Shown here: piece after piece, positions 14,570 through 37,465 of the stretch | Numbering within the stretch: position 1 is the first letter of the stretch | Layout of the letters: every line of letters begins with the position of its first letter | NCBI GenBank assembly: GCA_040754375.1 | Contig: JBFMCT010000001.1 | Location: 34,145-98,144 of the forward strand | Length of the DNA stretch: 64,000 bases | Reading direction: 5' to 3' | Origin: Actinomycetota bacterium | GTDB lineage: Bacteria; Actinomycetota; Acidimicrobiia; Acidimicrobiales; AC-14 | The notes under the pieces: model-generated | Seen by the model: only the letters and a program-made list of their open reading frames with translations | Database searches by the model: none | What the model was told of the DNA's origin: nothing | Position numbers and translations under genes: made by a program

Positions 14570-14920
14570 TCAGGTTCGGGGCCGGCCCTCCCCCCGGCGA
14601 TGGTGCTCGGCCAGCTCGTCGACGGAGGTAAGCGGGCTCAGTTCGGTGCCCGCCCGGTAGGCGGCCCGGCCCACCATGTGGGCCCCCACGGGGGCCGTGA
14701 CGAACTGGAGCACGATCACCAGGAGCAGCTTGGCCACGTCACCCCGGTTGTCGATGACGATGGCCGCGCCCGCCAGCACGAGCACGAGACCGAGCGTGGC
14801 CGGCTTGGTGGCCGCGTGCATGCGGGCGAACACGTCGGGGAACTGCTGGAGCCCGAGCCCGGCGGTGAGGCCCAGGGTGACGCCGGCGAGGATCAGGGCG
14901 GAGGCGATGGCTTCGGGCAT
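14570..14920 (-). CDS. mnhG: Mrp/Mnh antiporter subunit G (operon 1)
   Basis: A 116-residue protein with three membrane segments, matching MnhG/MrpG: GLQQFPDVFARMHAATKPATLG is the family signature. It is part of the multi-subunit Na+(K+)/H+ antiporter in the cytoplasmic membrane. The ATG at 14920 overlaps the mnhF stop (TGATG). It is the last gene of the seven-gene operon A-B-C-D-E-F-G and ends 10 bases from the convergent site-2 protease gene. Confidence 0.92.
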   Translation of the reverse strand: MPEAIASALILAGVTLGLTAGLGLQQFPDVFARMHAATKPATLGLVLVLAGAAIVIDNRGDVAKLLLVIVLQFVTAPVGAHMVGRAAYRAGTELSPLTSVDELAEHHRRGEGRPRT

Positions 14921-15180
14921 CAGGCTCCTCTCCGCTCGATGAACCGGGCCACGTTGACCGTGCCCACGAACCCGAGCAGAGCGGTCACCACGAGCACGTC
15001 GAGGAAGACGCCCGACCCGGTGCGGGCCGCCCCTACGGCGATCCCGCTGACGATCAGGACCAGGACGGTGTCGAGGGCCACGATGCGGTCGGCCAGCGAC
15101 GGGCCCCGCACGAGGCGGGCCAGGCACAAGAAGACGGCGACCGCCAAGATGGCGAAGGCCACGGTCGTGACAGTTGTCAT
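14920..15180 (-). CDS. mnhF: Mrp/Mnh antiporter subunit F (operon 1)
   Basis: An 86-residue protein with three membrane segments. The family core is visible as LVRGPSLADRIVALDTVLV and a C-terminal FIERRG. MnhF is a small essential subunit of the Mrp cation/proton antiporter. It overlaps mnhE by 4 bases at its start and mnhG at its end, consistent with tightly coupled translation and fixed stoichiometry. Confidence 0.93.
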   Translation of the reverse strand: MTTVTTVAFAILAVAVFLCLARLVRGPSLADRIVALDTVLVLIVSGIAVGAARTGSGVFLDVLVVTALLGFVGTVNVARFIERRGA

Positions 15181-15797
15181 GGCTGCCCTTTCTGGTCCGA
15201 CGGTCCCGATGCTGTCGACGGCCCCGCCGCGCCCGACGGGCCCGGCCCGGGCCCCTCGGCCGCCAGCAGGCCCTCGGCCGCGGCGACGGCGCGCTTGGTG
15301 CCGAACGCCCGGATGGCCAGGACCTCGAGGTACTGCACCTCACGGCGGACGGCTTCGATGTCATTGAGGTGGAGGACGTGGACGTAGAGAACGGTGGGGT
15401 CGTGGTGGACCTCGATGGTCAGGGTGCCGGGTGTGAGCGAGATGGCGTTGGCCACCAGGGTGGTGAGGGTGTCCGACACCCCCTTGATGGGGATGGCGAC
15501 CACGCCTTCGTTGATCCGGTTGCTGGGCGTGACCACCTCCCACAGGACGATGGCGCTGGCCTCCAACAGCTTCCAGGCGAAGTACACGACGAAGCGGGCC
15601 ACGGCCACCGGGCGGAACGCCCCGGGGGCGCCCCGCTCGGCCCGAGGGAAGAGCGTCACCAGTACCCAGCCCACCAGCACGCCGCCGGCCACGTTGGCGA
15701 CGCTGAACGACTCCCACAGGGCGACCCACACCAGGGCCAGCCAGCCGATCATCAGCGGCAGCGTGAAGGGGAGCGGCCCCTGGCGCCGGGGGCTCAC
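15177..15797 (-). CDS. mnhE: Mrp/Mnh antiporter subunit E (operon 1)
   Basis: A 206-residue MnhE. Two membrane segments near the N-terminus (LMIGWLALVWVALW and ANVAGGVLVGWVLVTLF) are followed by a third, then a soluble domain with the family signature ANAISLTPGTLTIEV and LYVHVL. The C-terminal 35 residues are an added Gly/Pro/Ser-rich tail not needed for the fold. The GTG at 15797 overlaps the mnhD stop (GTGA). An internal ATG 15 codons later is possible. It is a structural subunit of the antiporter complex, linking the D and F/G modules. Confidence 0.9.
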   Translation of the reverse strand: MSPRRQGPLPFTLPLMIGWLALVWVALWESFSVANVAGGVLVGWVLVTLFPRAERGAPGAFRPVAVARFVVYFAWKLLEASAIVLWEVVTPSNRINEGVVAIPIKGVSDTLTTLVANAISLTPGTLTIEVHHDPTVLYVHVLHLNDIEAVRREVQYLEVLAIRAFGTKRAVAAAEGLLAAEGPGPGPSGAAGPSTASGPSDQKGQP

Positions 15798-17350
15798 CGG
15801 CCCAGTACCGCCTCGATGTACGGTGCGGGGTCGGCCAGCACGGTGGCCGCGTCGACCGCCATGTCGTAAAGGGGCGCACCGGCCACGGCCACGGCCAGGC
15901 TGGCCACGATCAGCACCACCGTGGGTACTGTCATCATCGGGGGCAACGAGATGCGCCCGGCAGCCGCCACGGTGGCCGTCCCACCCGCCCCGGAGCCGAG
16001 CACGGTACCCGTCCCGGCCGCCCCCGGCCCGCCCGCGCCCGGCCCCCCCTCGCCAGGCTGGCCCCAGAAGGCGGCCGCCCAGATCTTGGTCATGGAGAAC
16101 AGGGTCAGCAGGCTGACAGCCAGGCTCACGGCCACGATCCCGTAGCGCTCGATCTCGACGCCGGCGTTGACGAGGGCCAGCTTGCCCACGAAACCCGACG
16201 ACGGGGGTACCCCGGCCAGGCTCAGGGCGGGCACCATGAACAGGACGGCCAGCAGTGGCGTTCGATGGAGGAGTCCTCCCAGGCGGCTGAGCGCGCCGGT
16301 GCCGGTGGCGTTCTCGATCAGGCCCCCGACCAGGAACATCGTGGTCTTGACGATGATCTGGTGGACCATGAACAGGATCGAGCCGGCCAGCCCGGCCACC
16401 GAGAACAGCCCGACCCCCATGATCATGTAGCCGATCTGGCTCACGATGTGGAAGCTCAGGAGCCGCTTGATGTCGTTCTGGGCGATGGCGCCGAGCACGC
16501 CCACCACCATGGTCAGCCCGGCCAGCACGAGCAGCACCGTCGATGGCCCGCCGTCGGTCGGGAACATGAGGGTCTGGGTGCGGATGATGGCGTACACCCC
16601 GACCTTGGTCAGCAGGCCGGCGAAGATGGCGGTGACGGGCGTCGGGGCCGTCGGGTAGGAGTCCGGCAGCCAGAAGAACAGCGGGAAGATGGCAGCCTTC
16701 ACCCCGAACACCACCAGCAGGAGCAGGCCCAGGCCGTGGCGCACGGGCTGGGGCAGCTCGCCGATGCGGCCGGCCAGGTCGGCCATGTTGACCGTCCCGG
16801 TGGCCGCGTAGATGAGGCCCACGGCCGTCACGAAGAACGTCGACGCCACCAGGCTGATGACCACGTAGGTCATGCCCGTACGCACCTGGTCGCGCCCCCC
16901 GCCCAGGGTGATCAGGACATAGCTGGCGCTGAGCATGACCTCGAAGGCGACGAACAGGTTGAACAGGTCGCCGGCCAGGAACGAGGCCGACACCCCGGCG
17001 GCCAGGATCAGGTAGACGGGGTGGAAGAAGAGCCGGTCGTCGGCTGTGCGGGGGCTGCCGATGGAGTACACCAGCACGGCCAGCACCACCAGGGCGGAGA
17101 CGACCAGCATCAGGGCGGCGAACATGTCGGCGACCAACGAGATGCCGATGGGCGCGGGCCACGCCCCCACCTGGATGGCGACGGGGCCCTGGTCGTTGAC
17201 CTGGACCAGGACGGCGACGGTCAGGGCCAGGCAGGCCACCAGGACCGAAACGCTCAGCGCCCGCTGGGCCTGGGGCCGGCGGTGCAGGACCATCGACAGA
17301 GCGGCCGCCAGCAGGGGCAGGGCCACGGGCAGGGTCACGAGGGACCTCAC
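15794..17350 (-). CDS. mnhD: Mrp/Mnh antiporter subunit D (operon 1)
   Basis: A 518-residue protein with about 14 membrane segments, homologous to the proton-pumping ND4/NuoM/NuoN subunits of complex I. Characteristic stretches are FVAFEVMLSASYVLITLGGGRDQVRTG, with the conserved membrane glutamate, IFPLFFWLPDSYPTAPTPVTAIFAGLLTKVG and the lysine-bearing KRLLSFHIVSQIGYM. It forms one of the two proton-translocating channels of the antiporter. The GTG start overlaps mnhC (GTGA). A Gly/Ala-rich cytoplasmic loop near residue 430-460 is longer than usual. The closest relative in the window is the mnhD of operon 2. Confidence 0.94.
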   Translation of the reverse strand: MRSLVTLPVALPLLAAALSMVLHRRPQAQRALSVSVLVACLALTVAVLVQVNDQGPVAIQVGAWPAPIGISLVADMFAALMLVVSALVVLAVLVYSIGSPRTADDRLFFHPVYLILAAGVSASFLAGDLFNLFVAFEVMLSASYVLITLGGGRDQVRTGMTYVVISLVASTFFVTAVGLIYAATGTVNMADLAGRIGELPQPVRHGLGLLLLVVFGVKAAIFPLFFWLPDSYPTAPTPVTAIFAGLLTKVGVYAIIRTQTLMFPTDGGPSTVLLVLAGLTMVVGVLGAIAQNDIKRLLSFHIVSQIGYMIMGVGLFSVAGLAGSILFMVHQIIVKTTMFLVGGLIENATGTGALSRLGGLLHRTPLLAVLFMVPALSLAGVPPSSGFVGKLALVNAGVEIERYGIVAVSLAVSLLTLFSMTKIWAAAFWGQPGEGGPGAGGPGAAGTGTVLGSGAGGTATVAAAGRISLPPMMTVPTVVLIVASLAVAVAGAPLYDMAVDAATVLADPAPYIEAVLGR

Positions 17351-17715
17351 CGCACGTCCTCCGGGTCGGGCCGGCTGCGGGCGATGCGCCGGTCCTCCAG
17401 GTCGTCCTCGACCTCGTCGTCATGGCGGAGCAGCCAGCTCCGGTAGGCCAGCGTCAGCAAGAAGGCGCTCACGCCGAAAGCGATGACGATGGCCGTCAGG
17501 GCGAGGGCCTGGGGGAGGGGGTCGGCGAAGCCAGCCGTCTCGCCTCCCGAGATGGGCGCCCGCCCGGCCCGGCCCCCGGCCATGAGCAGCACGAGGTTGG
17601 CGCCGTGGCCCATCATGGCCAGCCCGATGACGATCTGGGTCAGGTTGCGCTGCAGGAGCAGGTAGGTGCCCACGGCGTAGAGCGTCCCCACGACCAGGGC
17701 GAGCACGACGATCAT
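17347..17715 (-). CDS. mnhC: Mrp/Mnh antiporter subunit C (operon 1)
   Basis: A 122-residue NuoK-like protein with three membrane segments. The core is [29 protein letters not shown] and DPLPQALALTAIVIAFGVSAFLL, which carry the conserved glycine and acidic pattern of MnhC. A cytoplasmic acidic/basic tail follows (DDEVEDDLEDRRIA). The ATG at 17715 overlaps the mnhB stop (ATGA). It is the small partner of the D subunit in the antiporter membrane arm. Confidence 0.94.
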   Translation of the reverse strand: MIVVLALVVGTLYAVGTYLLLQRNLTQIVIGLAMMGHGANLVLLMAGGRAGRAPISGGETAGFADPLPQALALTAIVIAFGVSAFLLTLAYRSWLLRHDDEVEDDLEDRRIARSRPDPEDVR

Positions 17716-18194
17716 GCCCGCTCGCCCTTCTCGGCGCCCAGGGTGGTGAGGATGCCGAGGACGAGGCCCACCACGACCAGGTAGACGCCGATGTCGAAGG
17801 GCAGGGCGGAGGTGGCCTTGACCTCGCCCAGCAGCGGCACGTCGAGGGTGACCTTGCCGCTCTCGAGGAACTGCCCGCCCACGACCAGAGCGGCCAGGCC
17901 GGTCCCGACGGCCATGGTCAGGCCGGCGCCCAGCAGGGCGGTGGCCGACACGGGCATCAGCCGACCGAGGTCGTCCGTGCCACCCTCCACGTAACGCAGC
18001 ACGAAGGCGGCGCCCGCCACCAGGCCGCCCACGAACCCACCCCCAGGGGCGTTGTGGCCCGCGAACAGCAGGAACAGCGAGAACAGCAGGGCGGTGTGGA
18101 AGATGGCCCCCACGCAGGTGGCCAGGATGAGCGACGGCTCCTCCTCGCCGGGCCCGACGTGGTGGGGCCCGACCTTGCCGGGGCGGGCGGTCAC
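17712..18194 (-). CDS. mnhB: Mrp/Mnh antiporter subunit B (operon 1)
   Basis: A 160-residue MnhB with four membrane segments. The family signature [22 protein letters not shown] is present, with the usual PSLIL start of the domain. The start is GTG at 18194, overlapping the mnhA stop by 4 bases. In operon 2 of this window the same domain is instead fused to the end of MnhA, so this separate form is the more usual arrangement. Confidence 0.93.
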   Translation of the reverse strand: MTARPGKVGPHHVGPGEEEPSLILATCVGAIFHTALLFSLFLLFAGHNAPGGGFVGGLVAGAAFVLRYVEGGTDDLGRLMPVSATALLGAGLTMAVGTGLAALVVGGQFLESGKVTLDVPLLGEVKATSALPFDIGVYLVVVGLVLGILTTLGAEKGERA

Positions 18195-20491
18195 GGGGCC
18201 TCCTCCCGTTGCCGGCCGGCCATGACCAGGCTGGCTATGCCCAGGGCGGCCACGACCAGCACGGTGATCTCGCCCATGGTGTCCATGCCCCGGAAGTCGA
18301 CGAGGATGACGTTGACCACGTTGCGCCCGCCGCCCTCGGGCAGGGCCCGGGCCAGGTACTCCTCAGACACCGGGGGGGCCGTGCGCGACCCGGCGGCCAC
18401 CATCACGAAGAAGGCCACGAACACCCCCACGCCGGCCGAGAGCACGATGCGCCCCCGCTCCCGCAGCCGCCAGGGCTTGGGATCGAAGCGGTCGGGCAGG
18501 TGGCGCAGGACGAGCACGAAGATGACCAGGGCGAGGGTCTCGATGAGCAACTGGGTGAGGGCCAGGTCGGGGGCCCCCTGGATGAGGAAGAGGACGGCCA
18601 CGCCGTAGCCCACCCCGCCCAGGAAGAGCACGGCCGCGAAGCGGCCCCGGGCCGTGGCCGCCCCGGCCGCGGCCACCAGGACAAGGGCGGCGACCGCCAC
18701 CTGGAGGGGCGACTCCGCGAAGGTGAGCCCGTCGGGGAGCGAGGCCCCCCGGGCCAGGGCCACGGCCGGCAGGGCGACCATGGTCAGCAGGATGATGGCC
18801 AGGTAGGTGGGCAAGGAACCGTTCTGGACCACGCCGGTGAGGCGGGTGGCCCCGAGCACCAGGTTGCGGACCGAGCCTTCGTAGGCCCCCTGGGCGGTGG
18901 GCACGGCTGGTAGGTGGTCCTGGGCCCTCTCGACCCTCTCGCGGGCGAGGAACAGGGCCACGCCGAGGGCGATGGTGACCCCCGAGAGGGCCAGGGCGGG
19001 CGTGAACCCGTGCCACAGCACGAGGTGCACGTCGACCTCGGCCAGCAGTGACGCGGCCACGGCCTCGGCCAGCCCGGTCACCAGGACGGGGGCGAACCCG
19101 AAGAGCACCGTCAGGCCGGCCAGCAGGGCGGCGGGCGCCAGGAACTGCCACTTGGGCAGGGGCACCTCGGGCCCGATCCGAGGCCGGCCCGACGGTGGCT
19201 TGTCGGCGAAGGTCCCCCACAAGAAGCGGGCCCCGTAGGCGAACGTCAGGACCGACCCGGCCACGACTCCTATCAGGGTCAGCAGGCCGCCCAGGCCGTG
19301 ACCGTGGACGAGGGCCTCGTAAGCCGCCTCCTTGGTGACGAACCCCAGCAGAGGCGGTAGGCCGGCCATCGACGCCGCGCCCACGGCGGCTACCGCGAAC
19401 GTTGCGGGCATGCGCCGGCCGAGGCCCGACAGCTCCCGCAGGTCGCGGGTGTGGGCCTGGTGGTCGACGATCCCCACGACCAGGAACAGGGCGGCTTTGA
19501 AGAGGCTGTGGGCCAGCAGGAGGGCGCCGCCCGCGAACGACAGCTCGGGGTAGCCGGCACCCACCAGCACGACCAGGAACCCCAGCTGGCTGATCGTGCC
19601 GTAGGCCAGCACCAGCTTGATGTCGTGTTGGCGCAGGGCGCGGTAGCCCCCGACGAGCATGGTCGTGAGCCCCACCGAGATGACCACCGGCCGCCAGTAG
19701 CCGACGCCGGCCGCGAAAGCGGGGGCCAGCCGGGCGATCAGGTACACGCCCGCCTTGACCATGGTGGCCGAGTGCAGGTAGGCGCTCACGGGGGTCGGGG
19801 CGGCCATGGCGCCGGGCAGCCAGGGGTGGAACGGGGCCTGGGCCGACTTGGTGAACGCCCCCAGCAGGATCATGGCCAGGCCCCAGCTCACGGCCGTGCC
19901 CGACGGGGGGTCGGCCAGGATGGCCGACAAGGAGTAGGTGCCGGCCGCCTGGCCGAGCACCACGAAGCCCCCGAGCATGGCCAGCCCGCCCGCCCCGGTG
20001 ACCAGCATGGCGTGGAGGGCGGCCGCCCGGGCCGACGGCTTGCTGTCCTCGAAGCCGATCAGCAGGTAGGAGGTCACCGAGGTGAGCTCCCAGAAGACGT
20101 AGATGGCCAGCAGGTTGTCGGACAGGACGATCCCGAGCATGGCCCCGGCGAAGGCCGTCAGCGTGCCCGCGAACCGCCCCAGGCCGGGCCGCTCGGAGAA
20201 GTAGTACCGGCTGTACACCATCACGAGCACGCCGACTCCCGAGATCAGGCCGGCCATGAGCAGGGAGAACCCGTCCAAGCGCAGGTCGAGCGACAGCCCC
20301 AGGCCGGGGACCCACGAGAGCGGCTGGTCGACGGCGGTGCCGGCGACGACGCCCGACCACTGGGCCATCACCCAGGCGAACGTGGCCGCCGGGGCGATGG
20401 CGCACAGCCAGAAGACCTTCCGCCCGAGCCGGGCCCCGGCGGCCGGGGCGACCACGGCGATGGCGGCGTGGAGCGCGAGGAGGAGGACCAC
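18191..20491 (-). CDS. mnhA: Mrp/Mnh antiporter subunit A (operon 1)
   Basis: A 766-residue subunit with about 20 membrane segments, related to complex I NuoL. Residues 1-500 hold the proton-channel core: WELTSVTSYLLIGFED with the membrane glutamate, [33 protein letters not shown] and the discontinuous helix around HDIKLVLAYGTISQLGF. The C-terminal part (about 610-760) holds the DUF4040/MbhD-like and MbhE-like segments ([35 protein letters not shown]). It starts operon 1, with GTG at 20491. A promoter should lie in the 243-bp gap shared with the divergent cysteine-desulfurase-like gene, but no convincing box was found for this direction. Confidence 0.94.
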   Translation of the reverse strand: MVLLLALHAAIAVVAPAAGARLGRKVFWLCAIAPAATFAWVMAQWSGVVAGTAVDQPLSWVPGLGLSLDLRLDGFSLLMAGLISGVGVLVMVYSRYYFSERPGLGRFAGTLTAFAGAMLGIVLSDNLLAIYVFWELTSVTSYLLIGFEDSKPSARAAALHAMLVTGAGGLAMLGGFVVLGQAAGTYSLSAILADPPSGTAVSWGLAMILLGAFTKSAQAPFHPWLPGAMAAPTPVSAYLHSATMVKAGVYLIARLAPAFAAGVGYWRPVVISVGLTTMLVGGYRALRQHDIKLVLAYGTISQLGFLVVLVGAGYPELSFAGGALLLAHSLFKAALFLVVGIVDHQAHTRDLRELSGLGRRMPATFAVAAVGAASMAGLPPLLGFVTKEAAYEALVHGHGLGGLLTLIGVVAGSVLTFAYGARFLWGTFADKPPSGRPRIGPEVPLPKWQFLAPAALLAGLTVLFGFAPVLVTGLAEAVAASLLAEVDVHLVLWHGFTPALALSGVTIALGVALFLARERVERAQDHLPAVPTAQGAYEGSVRNLVLGATRLTGVVQNGSLPTYLAIILLTMVALPAVALARGASLPDGLTFAESPLQVAVAALVLVAAAGAATARGRFAAVLFLGGVGYGVAVLFLIQGAPDLALTQLLIETLALVIFVLVLRHLPDRFDPKPWRLRERGRIVLSAGVGVFVAFFVMVAAGSRTAPPVSEEYLARALPEGGGRNVVNVILVDFRGMDTMGEITVLVVAALGIASLVMAGRQREEAP

Positions 20492-22376: not shown

Positions 22377-22898
22377 TCAGGCGGAGGTGAAAGTGGCGGC
22401 GCCCACCGTGAGGCCGGCCAGGAGGGCGGGGTCGAGGGTGCGTTCGAGCACGCCCACTACGAACCCCACGGCCCCCATGGGCAGCTCGACGGGCCCGTGG
22501 CCCCGGTCCGACCAGTAGACGGTGGGCCAGTCGTTGGGGCGGCCGTCGGTCCGCCAGCCGACCAGGCCTCCGCCGGCGACCACCCCCCAGGGCAGGAACC
22601 CACCGGGCTCGGGCCACACCGACCGTCCCGAACCGTTGCGCAGGGCCCGGCAGCGGGGTTCGATCAGGTCCATGAACGACTTGGAGGGGTCGAACGGCTC
22701 GATGAGGCTGATCACCCCGCCGAAGGTGCCCGATCCGTACTCCCGCACCAGCATGCGGTAGTCCTCGGGGGGCGGGAAGCCGTTGACGCTCGTGAACCGC
22801 TTCCAGTCCCCGTTGGCCCGCACGGGGTAGTCCGGTGGCTGGACAAGGTCGGTGAGGCGGACGAAGGCGGCGACCGACATCATGACGCCCGCGAGCAT
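22377..22898 (-). CDS. SMI1/KNR4 (SUKH)-like protein
   Basis: A 173-residue protein resembling the SMI1/KNR4 (SUKH) family: an early DWKRFTSVNGFPPPEDYRMLVREYGSGTFGG stretch corresponds to the family's conserved PxDyrxfl..yG core, followed by alternating aromatic beta-strand segments (GWRTDGRPNDWPTVYW). SUKH proteins often act as immunity proteins against secreted toxins, but many are housekeeping scaffold proteins, and no toxin is encoded nearby. Three in-frame ATG starts (22898, 22883, 22880) are possible, none with a strong ribosome site. It lies between the convergent cysteine-desulfurase-like gene and the hydrogenase locus, reading the same way as the latter with a 39-base gap. Confidence 0.6.
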   Translation of the reverse strand: MLAGVMMSVAAFVRLTDLVQPPDYPVRANGDWKRFTSVNGFPPPEDYRMLVREYGSGTFGGVISLIEPFDPSKSFMDLIEPRCRALRNGSGRSVWPEPGGFLPWGVVAGGGLVGWRTDGRPNDWPTVYWSDRGHGPVELPMGAVGFVVGVLERTLDPALLAGLTVGAATFTSA

Positions 22899-22937: not shown

Positions 22938-24317
22938 TCAGGGCGTGGTCGTGGCCCGGGCCCCGACCACGGTCAGGTCGTCGTCACGCCGCTCGTGGTT
23001 GGCGCACGCGCCCACGATGTGGCCGCACAGGGCTTCGAGCCCCAGGGGACCGGTGAGCGCGGCGTCGAGCAGCGAGGCCAGGCCCCGGGCCCGCGAGCGG
23101 TTCGGGCCGGTGACCAGCCCGTCGGTGTAAGCCAGCAGGGTCGCCCCCGGCCCCAGCTGGCCGGACACCTCCCGGCGGTGGCCGGCCCCGGGCGCGCCCA
23201 CGGGCGCGGTCAGTTGCTCGTGGAGGAACCGGCCGCCGTGCTCGTCGACGATCAGCGGGGGGCACATGCCGGCCGAGCACAGGCGGAGCTCGCCCGTGTC
23301 GGGCTGCACGACCATGTACACCAAGGCCGCGCCCTCTCCCCGGCCTGTGGCCGCCACGAAGCGGTCGAGGCAGCTCACCAGGCGGGCCGGGAACCGGCCC
23401 TCGATGACTACGTAGGCCGCCACCGCTACCCGCAGGTCGCTCTTGAGGGCGGCCGCCCCCACCCCGCACCCGGGGGCGTCGCCCACCACGATGCCCACGG
23501 CCCCGTGGTCGAGGGGGAACACGTCCCACCAGTCGCCGCCCCCGTCGAGGCCGATGGCCCACGGTCGCGAGCGCCCCACGACCTCGATCCCCTCGGGCCC
23601 GTCGGCCATCGGGCCCGGGCCCCGGCCCCTCTCGTGGGCCTGGGCGGCGCGGCGGCGCCCGGCGTAGTCGACCAGGGCGGCCAGGGCGGGCGAAGGCTCG
23701 GGTGGTCCCTCGTCAGGCGGGGCGGCCTCGGGAGGGGGCACCTCCTCGGCGAGCTCCTGGTCGCAGGCGCCCGCGTCACCGAGCTCCTCGCGCACGAGGG
23801 TGAGCACGGTGTCGAGGGAGCAGCCGACCTCCTCGCTGAACCCGGTGCCGAAGGAGCAGTCGGCCGGTTCGACCTCGATGAGGACGGTGTCAGCCGGCAG
23901 GGCGCCCCAGTGGCCCAGCACGGCCAGGGTGTGGTCGAGGTCACCGGCCCCGGCGATGGACTCGGCCAGGGCTTCGGCAACGCCCTCGGCCACCTCGGCC
24001 GGACCGGTCGTGGCGGGCGCCGGGTGGCCCAGGCGGCGGCACCGTACCGACCCGGGCACGCCCCCTCGGGCCGCCGCGCCCACCAGCACCAGCTTGGGGG
24101 GCTGGAGCTCGTCGACGCGGTGGAGGGCGAGGTGGGCGGCGTAGGGGAGGTCCTCGACGACCACCCCCGGGGGCCAAGGGAACGAGCTGAGGTAACGAAC
24201 GGCCTGGCGGCCGAAGTCGAGGTCCCGCCGGGCCCTGACCCCGAAGCCGGCCACCAGCGCCCGGCAGGATGCGACCTGGGGCCCGGCGGCAGCCGGGCCC
24301 CAGCCCAAGATGGTCAC
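22938..24317 (-). CDS. Hydrogenase maturation protease-like domain fused to SpoIIE/PP2C phosphatase
   Basis: A 459-residue fusion. Residues about 17-180 resemble [NiFe]-hydrogenase maturation endopeptidases (M52, HyaD/HupD), which trim the C-terminus of the large subunit. The start LVAGFGVRARRDLDFG corresponds to the family LVLGxGNxxxxDDGxG, and candidate nickel-sensing residues are D34, D56 and H129. A Pro/Glu-rich linker follows (about 185-210). Residues about 240-455 are a SpoIIE-type PP2C phosphatase with metal-binding acids in DGGGDWWD (D258, D262), VVGDAPGCGVG (D280), AYTDGL and RRDDDLTVV. It begins 7 bases after the hydrogenase large-subunit gene, so the two are almost surely cotranscribed. 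The GTG start is at 24317. The protease assignment is by motif and context. The phosphatase is clear. The target phosphoprotein is unknown. Confidence 0.78.
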   Translation of the reverse strand: MTILGWGPAAAGPQVASCRALVAGFGVRARRDLDFGRQAVRYLSSFPWPPGVVVEDLPYAAHLALHRVDELQPPKLVLVGAAARGGVPGSVRCRRLGHPAPATTGPAEVAEGVAEALAESIAGAGDLDHTLAVLGHWGALPADTVLIEVEPADCSFGTGFSEEVGCSLDTVLTLVREELGDAGACDQELAEEVPPPEAAPPDEGPPEPSPALAALVDYAGRRRAAQAHERGRGPGPMADGPEGIEVVGRSRPWAIGLDGGGDWWDVFPLDHGAVGIVVGDAPGCGVGAAALKSDLRVAVAAYVVIEGRFPARLVSCLDRFVAATGRGEGAALVYMVVQPDTGELRLCSAGMCPPLIVDEHGGRFLHEQLTAPVGAPGAGHRREVSGQLGPGATLLAYTDGLVTGPNRSRARGLASLLDAALTGPLGLEALCGHIVGACANHERRDDDLTVVGARATTTP

Positions 24318-24324
24318 GTCCGGC

Positions 24325-26205
24325 CTACTCGAACGTGCAGCCGCAGGAGTTGACCTCCCGCACGATCACGCCCTTGCCGGTGTCCATGTGGGTCGTGCAG
24401 GGCATGCACGGGTTGAGGCTGCGCACGGCCCGGAGCACGTCGATCCCCTTGATCTGGTCCTCGGGGACCGACTCCAGCAGGGGCGTGCCCACCACGCACT
24501 CCTCGTAGGGGCCGAGCTGGCCGAAGGCGTCGGTGGGCGAGGCGTTGAGGGTGGACGGGGTGGTGATCTGGTAGTTGACCAGCTTGCCCTTGTCCATCTC
24601 GATGTGGTGGACGAGAAAGCCCCGGGCCGCCTCCCAGAAACCGACCCCGATGCGGTGGTCCTTGGGGATCTTGAACGGGGTGTGCACCCTGGTCTCACCG
24701 GCCCGCCAGTACTCGAACGCCTTCAACAGGCAGTTCATGGCGATGGCCGAGGTCATGGCCACCACGTAGGCCCGTCCCCGGTTGCGCTCGAGGGCGTTGA
24801 GGGTGCGGGGCACCGACCAGAACAGCTCGGTCTCGGGCAGGGCGTGGCGGGGGAGCAGCATCTTCACCCCGTCGCCGGTCGCTTCGTAGAAGGGGTTCTC
24901 GGGCACCTTCTGGGCAAGGGCAGTGGCCCACAGCTGGCCGTAGGACCCTGTCTCGATCGACTTGCGGTCCCAGCGGGGGGCCGTGTCCCACGTGTAGCGC
25001 TCCCGGAAGTTGGTGGCCGTGGGCTTGGGGATGGTGGTCTTGTTCCACGGGTGGTAAGGCGACAGGGGGTTACCCAGGGGGTCGGTCTTGAACTTCTGGG
25101 GCCCGGTCTTGGTCCAGTCCTCGTAGAACGAGTGCTCGACGAACTCCTCGTAGCCCATGTTGATGTCGGTCAGGTTGGTGGTGACCAGCTTGCCGTCGAT
25201 GATCATCGAGGGCGTCGACCACCGGGAGTTGCCCCAGGTGTCGAGGTTGGCGTAGGTGGCGTCGTAGACCTTGGAGTTGTCGTAGATGCCGGTCTGGGCG
25301 ATGTTGACCGAGCGGGCGCCGACCTGCTCGTACTCGGGGTTGGCCTCCAGGAAGAAGTCGCAGATGTCGTCCCAGATGCGGGGGATGACCTTGGCGAAGT
25401 CGATGATCTTGCCCAGCTGGCTGTAGTACTCGTTGAAGCTCGACGTGGTGATGGTGGTGGACACCCCACCGGGGACCAGCGTCGAGGGGTGGGGGAACTT
25501 GCCGTACATGAGCATGCACATGATGCGCCCCACCCGGGTCCACTCGAGGGCCTCGAGGTAGATCTTGCCGGTCAGGGGGTTCATGGCGTCCATGATGTCT
25601 TTGATGGTCGTGTAGCCGTGGATGTCGGCGTTGGGGGCCAGGGTCTTCTCGGCCCGGGTGACCAGCTCGGGGTTGGTCACCGACACGATGGCGGTGGAGT
25701 AGTCCGGCCCGGCCAGCAGGCCCAGGTGGAGGGGCCGGTCGTAGAACATCTCCGCGCACTCGCCCAGGTTGCGGACCTCGACGCCCAGCGGCGGGGCACA
25801 GATGCCGAAGGTCTGCTCCAGGCCGAGAGCCGAGACCGAGGCGTGCACGCCACCGCACACCCCGCACGCCCGTGACGAGATGTCGATGGCGTCGCGGGGG
25901 TCACGGCCCTGCAGGATGATCTCGTAGCCCCGGAAGAGCATGGCCCGGGAGTGGCACTCCACGGCCTTGCGGTTCTCGAGGTCGAGCACGGTGTGGATGG
26001 CGAGGGCGCCGGCCACCCGGGTCATGGGGTCGATCGACCACTCACGCAGCCGGGGCGGGGCCGCCAACTGGGCGCCGGGGCCCGAACGCCGGCGCACGTA
26101 CCCCTTGCGCTGCCCGCCCGTCACGGCGTATGGCTCGGCCAGGCCTTCACGCAGGTGAGCCTTGCCAGTGGCATCGAACTCGATGGGAAGGTTCTTGAAG
26201 CACAT
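24325..26205 (-). CDS. [NiFe]-hydrogenase large subunit, group 1h-like
   Basis: A 626-residue hydrogenase catalytic subunit. The L1 motif RACGVCGGVH (112-121) and the L2 motif NPCMPCTTH (598-606) provide the four nickel-binding cysteines C114, C117, C600 and C603. The residue before the L2 cysteines is Asn, not the usual Asp. The 20 residues after H606 form the peptide normally removed by a maturation protease, and end unusually in NSCGCTFE. Overall sequence (LFRG..ILQGRDPRDA, NPLSPYHPWNK, NPCMPCTTH) recalls actinobacterial high-affinity uptake hydrogenases of group 1h. The ATG at 26205 follows GAGGGG at about 9 bases. No small subunit, Hyp or electron-transfer gene is in the window, although such subunits normally precede the large one. 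It is divergent from the regulator at 26279. Confidence 0.9.
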   Translation of the reverse strand: MCFKNLPIEFDATGKAHLREGLAEPYAVTGGQRKGYVRRRSGPGAQLAAPPRLREWSIDPMTRVAGALAIHTVLDLENRKAVECHSRAMLFRGYEIILQGRDPRDAIDISSRACGVCGGVHASVSALGLEQTFGICAPPLGVEVRNLGECAEMFYDRPLHLGLLAGPDYSTAIVSVTNPELVTRAEKTLAPNADIHGYTTIKDIMDAMNPLTGKIYLEALEWTRVGRIMCMLMYGKFPHPSTLVPGGVSTTITTSSFNEYYSQLGKIIDFAKVIPRIWDDICDFFLEANPEYEQVGARSVNIAQTGIYDNSKVYDATYANLDTWGNSRWSTPSMIIDGKLVTTNLTDINMGYEEFVEHSFYEDWTKTGPQKFKTDPLGNPLSPYHPWNKTTIPKPTATNFRERYTWDTAPRWDRKSIETGSYGQLWATALAQKVPENPFYEATGDGVKMLLPRHALPETELFWSVPRTLNALERNRGRAYVVAMTSAIAMNCLLKAFEYWRAGETRVHTPFKIPKDHRIGVGFWEAARGFLVHHIEMDKGKLVNYQITTPSTLNASPTDAFGQLGPYEECVVGTPLLESVPEDQIKGIDVLRAVRSLNPCMPCTTHMDTGKGVIVREVNSCGCTFE

Positions 26206-26264: not shown

Positions 26265-26270
26265 TAGTGT
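26265..26270 (+). promoter_or_regulatory. Putative -10 element (TAGTGT) for the hydrogenase-locus regulator
   Basis: TAGTGT lies 8 bases before ATG 26279, again suggesting a leaderless transcript. A near-palindrome GTTAGCAATGCTTAAC (26272-26287) covers the start codon and could be an autoregulatory site for the encoded helix-turn-helix protein. Both are pattern-based. Confidence 0.35.
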
Positions 26271-26278
26271 TGTTAGCA

Positions 26279-27421
26279 ATGCTTAACGACGGTGAGCGCC
26301 TGACGAGCGGGGTGGAGGACCTCGACCTGCTGCTCGACGGGCTCATCCTGGGCGACAACGTGGTCTGGGTGGGCGACGACGAAGACGTCGTCCGCCGGCT
26401 GGAGGACGCCCTGCTGGCCGAGTCGGTGCGGCGGGGCCAGCCGTGCTTCTACGTGGCGTCGGGGCTGGTCAACGATGCCCTCAAGCGCCGGCTGGGCCCG
26501 GGGGTGGTGGTGCTCGATGCCGGCGGGGGCGGTCCCTACGGCGACCCCGGGGTGCTGGCCACGGCCGTCATCGAGGGTTCCCGGGGTTCGCCGCCCGGGT
26601 GCGTGGTCGTCGACAACCTGGGGTCGTTCGCCCGGCGCTGGGGCCCCGACCGGGCAGTGGCCTTCTTCAGCCGGGTGTGCCCCCGCTTGTTCGACATCGG
26701 GGCACTGGCCTACTGGTGGGCCCCCAAGCGGGAGCTGACCCGATCGTCGCTCGAACGCATCACCCAGGTGACCCAGTGCGTGCTCGAGGTGTCCGGAGAT
26801 CACCTGCGGGTCATCAAGGCCGAGGGCCGCCCGCCCGGCGCCCAGGGCAGCCTCCAGCGGCTGCGGGTGGTCGACGGGGCCGTCACCCTGGAGGACGAGA
26901 TGGGCCTCGGGCGCCTGGGCCGGGGCCTCGAACGGTTACGCCGCGAGCGCAACCTGACCCAGAGCGACCTGGCCCGCTTCGGCCGGGTCAGCCCCAGCGC
27001 CATCAGCCAGGCCGAGGCCGGCAAGCGGGGCCTGTCCCTCGACACCCTGCTGCTGCTGTCCGACCGCCTGGGGGTCAGCCTCGACGAGCTGCTGTCGGCC
27101 TCGGCCGAGCCCGACTACGTGCTGGCCCGCCGCCCCCGGGCCTCGGGCAGCGTCCAGAAGGCCCTGCTCGACGACCCCAAGGCGGGCTTGCGGGCCTACC
27201 TCGTGCGCCTGGGCCCGTGGGAATCGGCTGCCCCCGAGATCCGCCACAAGGGCGAGGAACTGGTGCTCGTGGCCTCGGGCCTGGTGCAGGTCTCGATCGG
27301 TTCTGACACGCCCGTCATGCGGGCGGGCGACGCCGCCCTGGCCACCCGCACGGCCGTCTCGGGCTGGCGCAACCTCACCAACGACCCCGCCCTGCTCTTC
27401 TGGGTCCTGCGCGACGGCTGA
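26279..27421 (+). CDS. KaiC-like / XRE helix-turn-helix / cupin regulator
   Basis: A 380-residue three-part protein. Residues 1-200 look like a RecA/KaiC-type domain (SGVEDLDLLLDGLILGDNVVWV, VVVDNLGSFARRWG), but the P-loop is replaced by GDDEDVV, so ATP hydrolysis is unlikely. Residues about 215-275 are an XRE helix-turn-helix (LERLRRERNLTQSDLARFGRVSPSAISQAEAG). Residues about 300-380 are a small cupin (RHKGEELVLVASGLVQVSIG) that could bind a ligand. It is probably a transcription factor for the divergent hydrogenase genes, an inference from position. ATG 26279 is preferred because a TAGTGT box lies 8 bases upstream. GTG 26267 would add 4 residues but overlap that box. Confidence 0.78.
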   Translation: MLNDGERLTSGVEDLDLLLDGLILGDNVVWVGDDEDVVRRLEDALLAESVRRGQPCFYVASGLVNDALKRRLGPGVVVLDAGGGGPYGDPGVLATAVIEGSRGSPPGCVVVDNLGSFARRWGPDRAVAFFSRVCPRLFDIGALAYWWAPKRELTRSSLERITQVTQCVLEVSGDHLRVIKAEGRPPGAQGSLQRLRVVDGAVTLEDEMGLGRLGRGLERLRRERNLTQSDLARFGRVSPSAISQAEAGKRGLSLDTLLLLSDRLGVSLDELLSASAEPDYVLARRPRASGSVQKALLDDPKAGLRAYLVRLGPWESAAPEIRHKGEELVLVASGLVQVSIGSDTPVMRAGDAALATRTAVSGWRNLTNDPALLFWVLRDG

Positions 27422-34651: not shown

Positions 34652-37465
34652 GTGACGGGTGGGCCGGGATGGGTGAGCACCCTGCTGGCGCTGCACCTGG
34701 CCGCCGCCTTGGCTGCCGTGCCCCTGGTGCGCCGGGCCGGGCCACGAGGCCTGCTCGTCCTGGCCGCCGTGCCGGGCGCGGTCCTGCTCTGGGTGGCGAC
34801 CACGGCCCCGCGGATCCTCGACGGTGCTCCCGTGGAGGAACGAATCGGCTGGGCACCCGACCTGGGGTTCGAGATCGCGGTCCGGGTCGACTCGTTCTCG
34901 CTGGTCATGGTGCTGCTCGTATCTGGGATCGGCGCGCTGATCTTCGCCTACGGCTTCGCCTACTTCGGCGAGCGGCCTGACCTCGGCCGCCTGGCCAGCC
35001 TCTTGATGGGGTTCTCGGGAGCGATGCTGGGCCTCGTCGTCACCGACAACCTGCTGGCCATCTTCCTGTTCTGGGAGGCGACCTCGATCACCTCCTACTT
35101 GCTGATCGGCAACGACGACCGGTCGGCCGCCGCCCGCTCCGCCGCATTGCGAGCACTACTCACCACCGGGGTCGGGGGCCTCGCCATGCTCGCGGGCTTC
35201 GTCCTGCTCGCCCAGGAAGCCGGGTCGTGGTCGCTGACCCAGATCCTTGCCGACCCCCCTCGCGGGGCAGTGGTGGAGGTCGCGCTGGTGCTGGTCCTGC
35301 TCGGGGCATTCACCAAGTCGGCTCAGGTGCCATTCCACTTCTGGCTCCCAGGGGCCATGGCCGCCCCCACCCCGGTCAGCGCCTACCTCCACTCCGCGAC
35401 CATGGTCAAAGCTGGCGTGTACCTCATCGCCAGGTTCGCGCCTCCCTTCGCCGAGGTTGGCGTGTGGAGGCCAATGGTGATCTCGGTCGGTCTTGCCACC
35501 ATGCTGCTCGGGGGTTGGCGAGCGCTGGCCCAGCACGACCTGAAGCTGCTGCTGGCGCACGGCACCACGAGCCAACTGGGCCTCCTGGTCGTACTGCTGG
35601 GTGCCGGTTACCCCGAGGCCACGCTGGCCGGCGTGGTTCTGCTGCTGGCCCACGGCGCGTACAAGGCGGCGTTGTTCATGGTCGTCGGCATCATCGAGAA
35701 GGCAGCTGGTACCCGCGACATCCGGAAGCTGACCGGCCTCCACCGGCCGCTGCGGACGACCCTACTGGTGGCGGCCGTCGCCGCCGGGTCGATGGCGGGT
35801 GTCCCACCCATGCTGGGGTTCGTCGCCAAGGAGGCGACCTATGAGGCGGCGCTCGGCTCGGGCCTCGCAATGGCAGGCCTCGTGGTCGCGCTGCTGGTGG
35901 CCGGTTCGGCCCTGACCTTCGCCTACAGCGCCCGCGCTTTGTGGGGGGCGTTCGCCCACAAGGGGCCCCTGGACCTCGAGGACGGGACGAGCGTCGGCCC
36001 CGTCTCGGGGGCCGGCCTGCGGCTGGTCCTGCCCGCCGCAGTGCTCGCTGCGTTGGCCGTCGCGCTCGGTGCTGCGCCGACGCTTGTCGAGGCCATCGTC
36101 GTCAGCGGTGCCCAGGCGATCGACCCGGACGTCCCCCCAGCCCATCTCAGGCTGTGGCATGGCTTCAACGCTCCTCTCACGCTCTCCGCCATCACGATCG
36201 GAGCCGGAGCCCTGCTGTGGGTGGCTAGGCATCGACTCGAGCGGCTGCAGCAGATGGTCCACGTCCCGCCCTCAGGTGCCCGCACCTTCGACCTGCTTCT
36301 GCGCAACACAGTCCGCGCCGCCGACCGCGTGACCGGCGCCCTCCAGACGGGATCGTTGCCCGTCTACCTCCTGATCATCCTCACCACGGTGCTCGTCGTG
36401 CCGGGCACGTTCCTGCTGGTCAGCCTCGACCTCCCGTCCGAACTGCTCCTTGTCGACCGGCCGGTACAGGTGGCAGTCGCCGCCGCCATGGTGGTGGCCA
36501 CCGTGGGGGCGATCCGTACCAGGCACCGCCTGGGGGCGGTGATGGCTGTCGGCGCCGTTGGGTACGGGGTCGCCGTGCTCTTCATCATCCAGGGCGCCCC
36601 CGACTTGGCCCTGACCCAGCTGATGATCGAGACCCTCCTGCTGGTGCTGTTCGTGCTCGTGCTCCGGCACCTGCCGAGGCGGTTCACCAGCGCCCAGACA
36701 GCGCTACCGACCGCTCCTCGAGCCGTCCTGGCGGTGCTGGTCGGTCTGTTCGCGGCGGTCTTCGCGATGGTGGCGGTGGGGGCGCGGCCCGACCTTGAGC
36801 CTGTCTCGGTCGAGTACCTGGCCCGCTCGCTCCCGGAGGCCGACGGGCGCAACATCGTGAACACGATCCTCGTCGACTTCCGGGCCTTCGACACGCTAGG
36901 GGAGATCGTCGTGCTGACTGTCGCCGGTCTCGGGGTGATCGGCCTCGTACGCGCCGCCAGCCGAGAGCGAGTCCCCCAGCCAACGCGCCCGGGGCCAATT
37001 CGCCAAGAACCATCGCTGATCCTCGACCGGGCTGTGAGGGCCCTGTTCCATACGGTCATCACGTTCTCGGTCGTGCTCCTGCTGATCGGGCACAACGAGC
37101 CGGGAGGCGGGTTCATCGGCGGCCTGGTGGCCGGCGCTGCTTTCATGTTGGTATACCTGGCCGGCGGTACCGGCCGGCTGCAGCGGGCGGAGCCCCTCAA
37201 CCCCGAGTTGTTCCTGGGCCTTGGGATCAGCCTGGCCGCCTTGGCTGGGCTCTTCGGTTGGCTCTCGGGGGGGGAGTTCCTCGAGGCGTCCCACATCTCG
37301 TTCGACGTTCCGCTACTGGGAGGGGTCAAGCTGGCGACTGTGCTGCTATTCGACGGGGGAGTCTACTTGGTGGTGGTCGGCTTGGTTGTGGCCCTGCTCC
37401 GCTCGCTCGGCCAAGAGGACGTAAGGGGAGGTTCGCCCCAGGCGTCGAGTGGGGCACCGCGGTGA
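34652..37465 (+). CDS. mnhA: Mrp/Mnh antiporter subunits A and B fused (operon 2)
   Basis: A 937-residue fusion. Residues 1 to about 765 are MnhA, with the NuoL-like core ([66 protein letters not shown]) and the DUF4040/MbhE-like C-terminal parts ([34 protein letters not shown]). Residues about 788-937 are MnhB ([35 protein letters not shown]). It opens the second Mrp operon. GTG 34652 is used, although an upstream ribosome site is weak. MnhA and MnhB are separate genes in operon 1. The codon choice is less GC-biased than in operon 1, suggesting a different origin rather than recent duplication. Confidence 0.92.

Follow-up and report, generated by a model that had tools for sequence, protein, structure and literature searches.

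The window, the 64,000-nucleotide stretch of DNA that was analysed, comes from a soil-type actinobacterium and contains, on its minus strand, a gene whose product joins a domain with the fold of the M52 hydrogenase maturation proteases to a SpoIIE/RsbU-type PP2C phosphatase. The reading frame extends from 24317 to 22938, 459 codons with a GTG start and without interruption, and exactly 7 bases separate the stop of the hydrogenase large-subunit gene (24325) from its start, the spacing given in a preliminary description of this DNA. The features of the locus are the following, with the evidence for each in parentheses.

22938..24317, minus strand: fusion gene of 459 codons, encoding a pseudo-M52 domain, a linker and a SpoIIE/RsbU-type PP2C phosphatase (open frame; Pfam, NCBIfam, AlphaFold2 and Foldseek)
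23775..24269, minus strand: pseudo-M52 domain, residues 17-181 (hhalign probability of 97.5% against true M52; ten best Foldseek matches all M52; ligand columns)
24219-24221, 24078-24080 and 23949-23951, minus strand: M52 ligand positions of the fusion protein, L33, G80 and G123, respectively (alignment columns)
23631..23690, minus strand: linker helix of low confidence, residues 210-229 (AlphaFold2 secondary structure, pLDDT 50-59)
22950..23591, minus strand: SpoIIE/PP2C phosphatase domain, residues 243-456, with GGD262, GD280, TD399G and D446-D447 (Pfam; Foldseek to 3ke6; motifs)
24325..26205, minus strand: [NiFe]-hydrogenase large subunit, 626 aa from the ATG of MCFKNLP (Pfam NiFeSe_Hases, E=2.9e-63; alignment; start position)
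26265..26283, minus strand: operator-like sequence AGCATTGCTAACAACACTA between the regulator and large-subunit genes (only match in the genome)
26267..27421, plus strand: divergent regulator with a KaiC/MEDS-like N-terminus, HTH_3 and cupin (Pfam; tblastn)

The hydrogenase large subunit and its surroundings

The likely start of the large-subunit gene is the ATG of MCFKNLP at 26205. Its product possesses both CxxC motifs of the NiFe-cofactor site (RACGVCGGVH and NPCMPCTTH) and, after CTTH, a C-terminal tail, MDTGKGVIVREVNSCGCTFE (NPCMPCTTHM...CTFE); other full-length copies of the 626-aa family also have both motifs and a tail. HofG is the best PDB match, but assignment to typical group 1h (HofG/Hhy) was rejected, as the genome encodes a separate HofG-like copy together with a small subunit (contig C21) that is only 42% identical to the window copy. 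The window large subunit belongs to a distinct 626-aa family, possibly of HydDB group 1l. No small-subunit gene is present at the window locus, where the divergent regulator stands in that place; small subunits are likewise absent from the other fusion loci with upstream sequence (L037, L038, L040 and L059), at each of which tblastn places an HTH-cupin regulator in the same position. L040 and L137 carry the operator-like sequence in the corresponding position, but the motif does not constitute independent evidence because it was read off these same loci. A scan for promoters and terminators gave nothing above chance.

Further large-subunit copies in the genome of the window are encoded on contigs C5 (91% identical over 290 aa) and C63 (98% over 91 aa), and two small-subunit fragments lie at the ends of contigs C29 and C64; another genome, G029, has four full-length large-subunit copies plus fragments. 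Contigs break inside large-subunit genes, as expected for repeats, so these copy numbers are minima. Dispersed, very similar 626-aa copies, several without small-subunit or accessory genes, occur in G029, G220, G079 and the window's own genome (loci L130-L143). One of those in G029 (L133:3389-6314; contig C52, about 115.4-118.3 kb) is followed at once by a sigma-70 factor gene, with no pseudo-M52 gene, about 8 kb from the fusion locus of that genome.

Just downstream of the fusion gene is a SUKH_6 (SMI1/KNR4-like) gene (22377-22898, minus strand), which is absent beside the other fusions with scanned neighbours. No conserved downstream partner of the fusion was found, nor any STAS or anti-sigma gene linked to the fusion module. 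Elsewhere in the window, an Mrp/Mnh-type antiporter-like operon, judged from translations only, occupies 14920-20491 (minus strand), and a separate single-gene fusion of Mrp/MBH subunits (Pfam Proton_antipo_M, MbhD, MbhE and MnhB) occupies 34652-37465 (plus strand).

The two halves of the fusion protein

SpoIIE is the only Pfam family matched by the fusion protein (residues 271-454), and none reaches its cut-off on the pseudo-M52 domain. The relationship of the N-terminal half to hydrogenase maturation proteases, proposed in the preliminary description, is borne out by more sensitive comparisons. Its match to NCBIfam TIGR00072, 'hydrogenase maturation protease' (E=7e-9), scores 35.8 bits, below the curated cut-off of 47.45, and its phmmer match among PDB sequences, to the hydrogenase maturation peptidase 5ttx, is weak (E=0.032); profile-profile comparison by hhalign of 13 N-terminal and stand-alone homologues with four true M52 proteases gives a probability of 97.5%. 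The AlphaFold2 model of residues 1-200 (pLDDT 81.9, pTM 0.75) has the M52 alpha/beta fold, and hydrogenase maturation proteases take all of the top ten places in its Foldseek comparison with the PDB (TM 0.65-0.72 on target); the absence of such a structural match, named earlier as the result that would refute the proposal, was therefore not observed. In the model of the full protein (27-row alignment, mean pLDDT 78.8), Foldseek aligns the N-terminal half with 5ttx, 5zby and 1cfz, and the C-terminal half with RsbU, RssB and SpoIIE structures.

The fold is retained without the ligands of the peptidase. In HybD, the proposed metal ligands are Glu16, Asp62 and His93 (PMC2670836). In an alignment of 57 pseudo-M52 family members with 20 true M52 proteases, some of the latter near-identical, that come from comparable loci, these positions are Leu33, Gly80 and Gly123 in the fusion protein, so that none of the three carries the Glu/Asp, Asp and His of HybD. 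Across the family the columns are L in 55/57, G in 55/57 and G in 56/57, whereas all 20 true proteases have D, D and H. Judged by these columns, the N-terminal half is a pseudo-protease with an M52 fold that is not expected to cut. The residues D34, D56 and H129, earlier put forward as candidate metal ligands, are indeed present and conserved (54/57, 57/57 and 52/57, respectively), but in columns other than those of the M52 ligands, where true M52 proteases mostly have G, E and R; together with D32, E55, D126, D128, E148 and E150, they appear to mark a different conserved surface or site. Processing of the adjacent large subunit by the fusion protein, also suggested earlier, is not supported, given the loss of all three ligands from essentially the whole family and the presence of two true M52 proteases encoded outside the window in the same genome, one of them on contig C5. 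TIGR00072 labels some pseudo-M52 members as proteases, and family models thus name proteins of this kind 'hydrogenase maturation protease' though cutting is not expected of them.

The C-terminal half is a full-length SpoIIE domain (Pfam E=2.4e-30, profile positions 2-190 of 192), related to Rv1364c by both structure (3ke6, Foldseek E=2.3e-15) and sequence (phmmer E=5.6e-14), and it contains every metal-ligand motif of PPM phosphatases, as expected of the complete phosphatase announced in the preliminary description. One metal ligand has been lost in five of the six fusions, at two different positions: K or N replaces D280 in the L037, L038 and L039 fusions, and A replaces D399 in those of L059 and L060. 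In five SpoIIE relatives that are not fused, GGD, GD and TDG are intact (the fourth motif was not caught there by a simple pattern). The window copy, 44-50% identical to the other fusions in this domain, is sister to L059 and L060 in the tree, and the losses fall in two different sub-clades. Because the window copy is complete and the losses are divided in this way, phosphatase catalysis is probably ancestral, retained in the window copy and lost at least twice elsewhere with the domain still in frame; the enzyme is thus apparently still active in the window copy and probably inactive in the relatives.

Homologous fusions and the stand-alone domain

Five further open-frame fusion genes, 45-49% identical to that of the window, were found in four other genomes.

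G220:C213 (L058): full fusion, Acidimicrobiales MAG10
G220:C28 (L071): full fusion, same genome as G220:C213 (Acidimicrobiales MAG10)
G029:C52 (L061): full fusion, Acidimicrobiia nzgw84
L059: full fusion, bin labelled Rubrobacter LC3_4
L060: full fusion, Actinomycetota 0707_bin12

All lie directly behind a large-subunit gene, as the preliminary description had proposed to check, and in a tree with 53 other sequences the six fusions group as a single clade (support 100/96). A frame artefact or a chimeric assembly is ruled out by these homologues, and since they are open frames in other genomes in the same position, the arrangement is more than chance; the domain fusion is confirmed as real and conserved. 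On the tree, it is shown to have arisen once, in Acidimicrobiia-related Actinomycetota. A sixth homologue (G079:C39, L040:1394-2767) is truncated, its homology being lost after about 115 residues, and a second fusion copy, at L039:7300-8658, is missing an internal stretch of its pseudo-M52 domain. Pairwise NG86 estimates, which are rough because dS is high, give dN < dS in both domains and a nearly free linker. Ten genomes of the window's family include three with a full fusion (the window's own, G029 and G220) and one with a truncated fusion; therefore, the trait is patchy. The fusion count is a lower bound, as alignment-based search patterns would not match the window protein and equally divergent members can be missed.

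The pseudo-M52 domain also exists alone, as a protein of about 170-190 aa; many Acidimicrobiia encode it, and so do some Actinomycetota outside that class. The genome of the window has such a gene on contig C5 (L005:958-1509), and about 50 other loci in Acidimicrobiia hydrogenase operons have one beside a true M52 gene. The gene order in the complete operons that were read is small subunit, large subunit, pseudo-M52, NifU-like protein and true M52, and the small-subunit gene is present wherever upstream sequence was covered. In Mycobacterium smegmatis, the NifU-domain proteins HucE and HhyE, encoded in hydrogenase operons, are needed for H2 uptake (PMC6883350). The occurrence of the stand-alone domain in operons with a true M52 gene implies a role that is linked to hydrogenase and is not that of a peptidase; the pseudo-M52 protein thus appears to work beside the true protease, not instead of it.

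Proposed function, alternatives and known systems

RsbU-like phosphatases are driven by diverse N-terminal sensor domains, which act via a linker that brings the catalytic domains together as dimers (PMC12143880), and cleavage of the large-subunit tail marks completed insertion of the cofactor (PMC12134894). Our preferred reading, with a probability of roughly 0.45, is that of a partner-switching phosphatase whose sensor or docking domain is a hydrogenase-binding pseudo-protease. On this reading, an accessory domain of the hydrogenase system, already devoid of peptidase activity, would have been fused once to the phosphatase, keeping its ancestral recognition of the large subunit from the adjoining gene, probably as the precursor with its C-terminal tail; homology and gene order are what point to this binding. 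Binding or release of the large subunit might then signal through the linker to the phosphatase, presumably in that direction, and the phosphatase, if active, would dephosphorylate an anti-anti-sigma (STAS) partner, its likely substrate, tying hydrogenase maturation to gene expression. The sensor-phosphatase reading is weakened by the linkers of the fusions, which are short, diverged and of low confidence, by the lack of any STAS or anti-sigma gene found linked to the module, and by the absence of one phosphatase ligand from five of the six fusions, so that catalytic signalling is not conserved. We regard as doubtful the bolder version in which the phosphatase pathway takes its input from the large-subunit copy, which has no small subunit of its own, the pseudo-protease reading its cofactor (or H2/nickel) status, as a class apart from the regulatory hydrogenases.

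The main rival, favoured by the ligand losses in the relatives and in our estimation a serious possibility, is a non-catalytic assembly factor, in which the pseudo-protease, together with a PP2C domain that now serves only for protein binding or dimerisation, would hold or escort the large subunit and the ligands of the window copy would be an ancestral remnant. Each of two separate sub-clades has lost a ligand (D280 or D399) from a domain that is still in frame and has dN < dS, which is consistent with such a scaffold, as is the commonness of the pseudo-M52 domain without a phosphatase, but a neutral remnant would be unlikely to keep every ligand at 44-50% identity. The possibility that repeated duplication left the extra large subunits and the fusion as decaying copies that now do little or nothing seems improbable: these genomes do have many large-subunit copies, several without small-subunit or accessory genes, and the truncated fusion of L040 and the internally deleted one of L039 look like decay, but six long fusion frames remain open at about 50% divergence with dN < dS in both domains, catalytic motifs persist in every full-length large subunit examined, and the position of the regulator is conserved. 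An active M52 protease joined to a phosphatase, with D34, D56 and H129 as an alternative metal site, is very improbable; the fold, the strong conservation of D34, D56, D126, D128 and H129 and the cleavable tail of the adjacent large subunit would suit it, but the ligand columns speak against it, and true M52 genes are present both in the same genome and downstream in the stand-alone operons. Thus, of the protease-phosphatase fusion first described, the joining of two halves, the M52 fold, the SpoIIE-type phosphatase and the position behind the large-subunit gene all stand, but the protease is a pseudo-protease.

M52 proteases act as the checkpoint at which a finished hydrogenase is released. 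That these operons keep a version dead throughout its family next to an active one suggests that hydrogenase maturation involves a non-catalytic function so far unrecognised, and with the SpoIIE-type fusion, partner-switching signalling gains an N-terminal domain of a new kind. The occurrence of the fusion beside hydrogenase genes in relatives is a hint that hydrogenase assembly and cell signalling may be connected in a way not yet described, and raises the testable question of whether gene expression in these bacteria is adjusted to the state of hydrogenase maturation. A search of a library of PMC papers found no report joining a hydrogenase maturation protease to SpoIIE, and a broader search gave nothing relevant; the arrangement is apparently undescribed, as had been supposed from the outset.

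The fusion protein resembles the M52 endopeptidases (HybD 1cfz, HycI 2e85 and 5ttx) in its fold, in the start of the glycine-rich motif and in the adjoining of its gene to hydrogenase genes, and differs in the replacement of all three ligands, the encoding of true M52 proteases besides and the attached phosphatase. With the RsbU, SpoIIE and Rv1364c phosphatases (3ke6, 5ucg) it shares the catalytic domain, the metal-ligand motifs and the layout of N-terminal domain, linker and phosphatase, but a hydrogenase pseudo-protease takes the place of a PAS, GAF, receiver, HAMP or RsbT-binding bundle domain. The stand-alone pseudo-M52 proteins (e.g. L005:958-1509) have the same domain directly after the large subunit; unlike the fusion, they are without a phosphatase and have NifU-like and true M52 genes downstream in their operons. 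The H2-sensing regulatory hydrogenases of groups 2b and 2d embody a similar idea, that of a hydrogenase subunit feeding a signalling protein, but their large subunits are without a C-terminal tail (PMC12134894), whereas that of the window has a tail and no small subunit beside it, and its putative output is a PP2C phosphatase.
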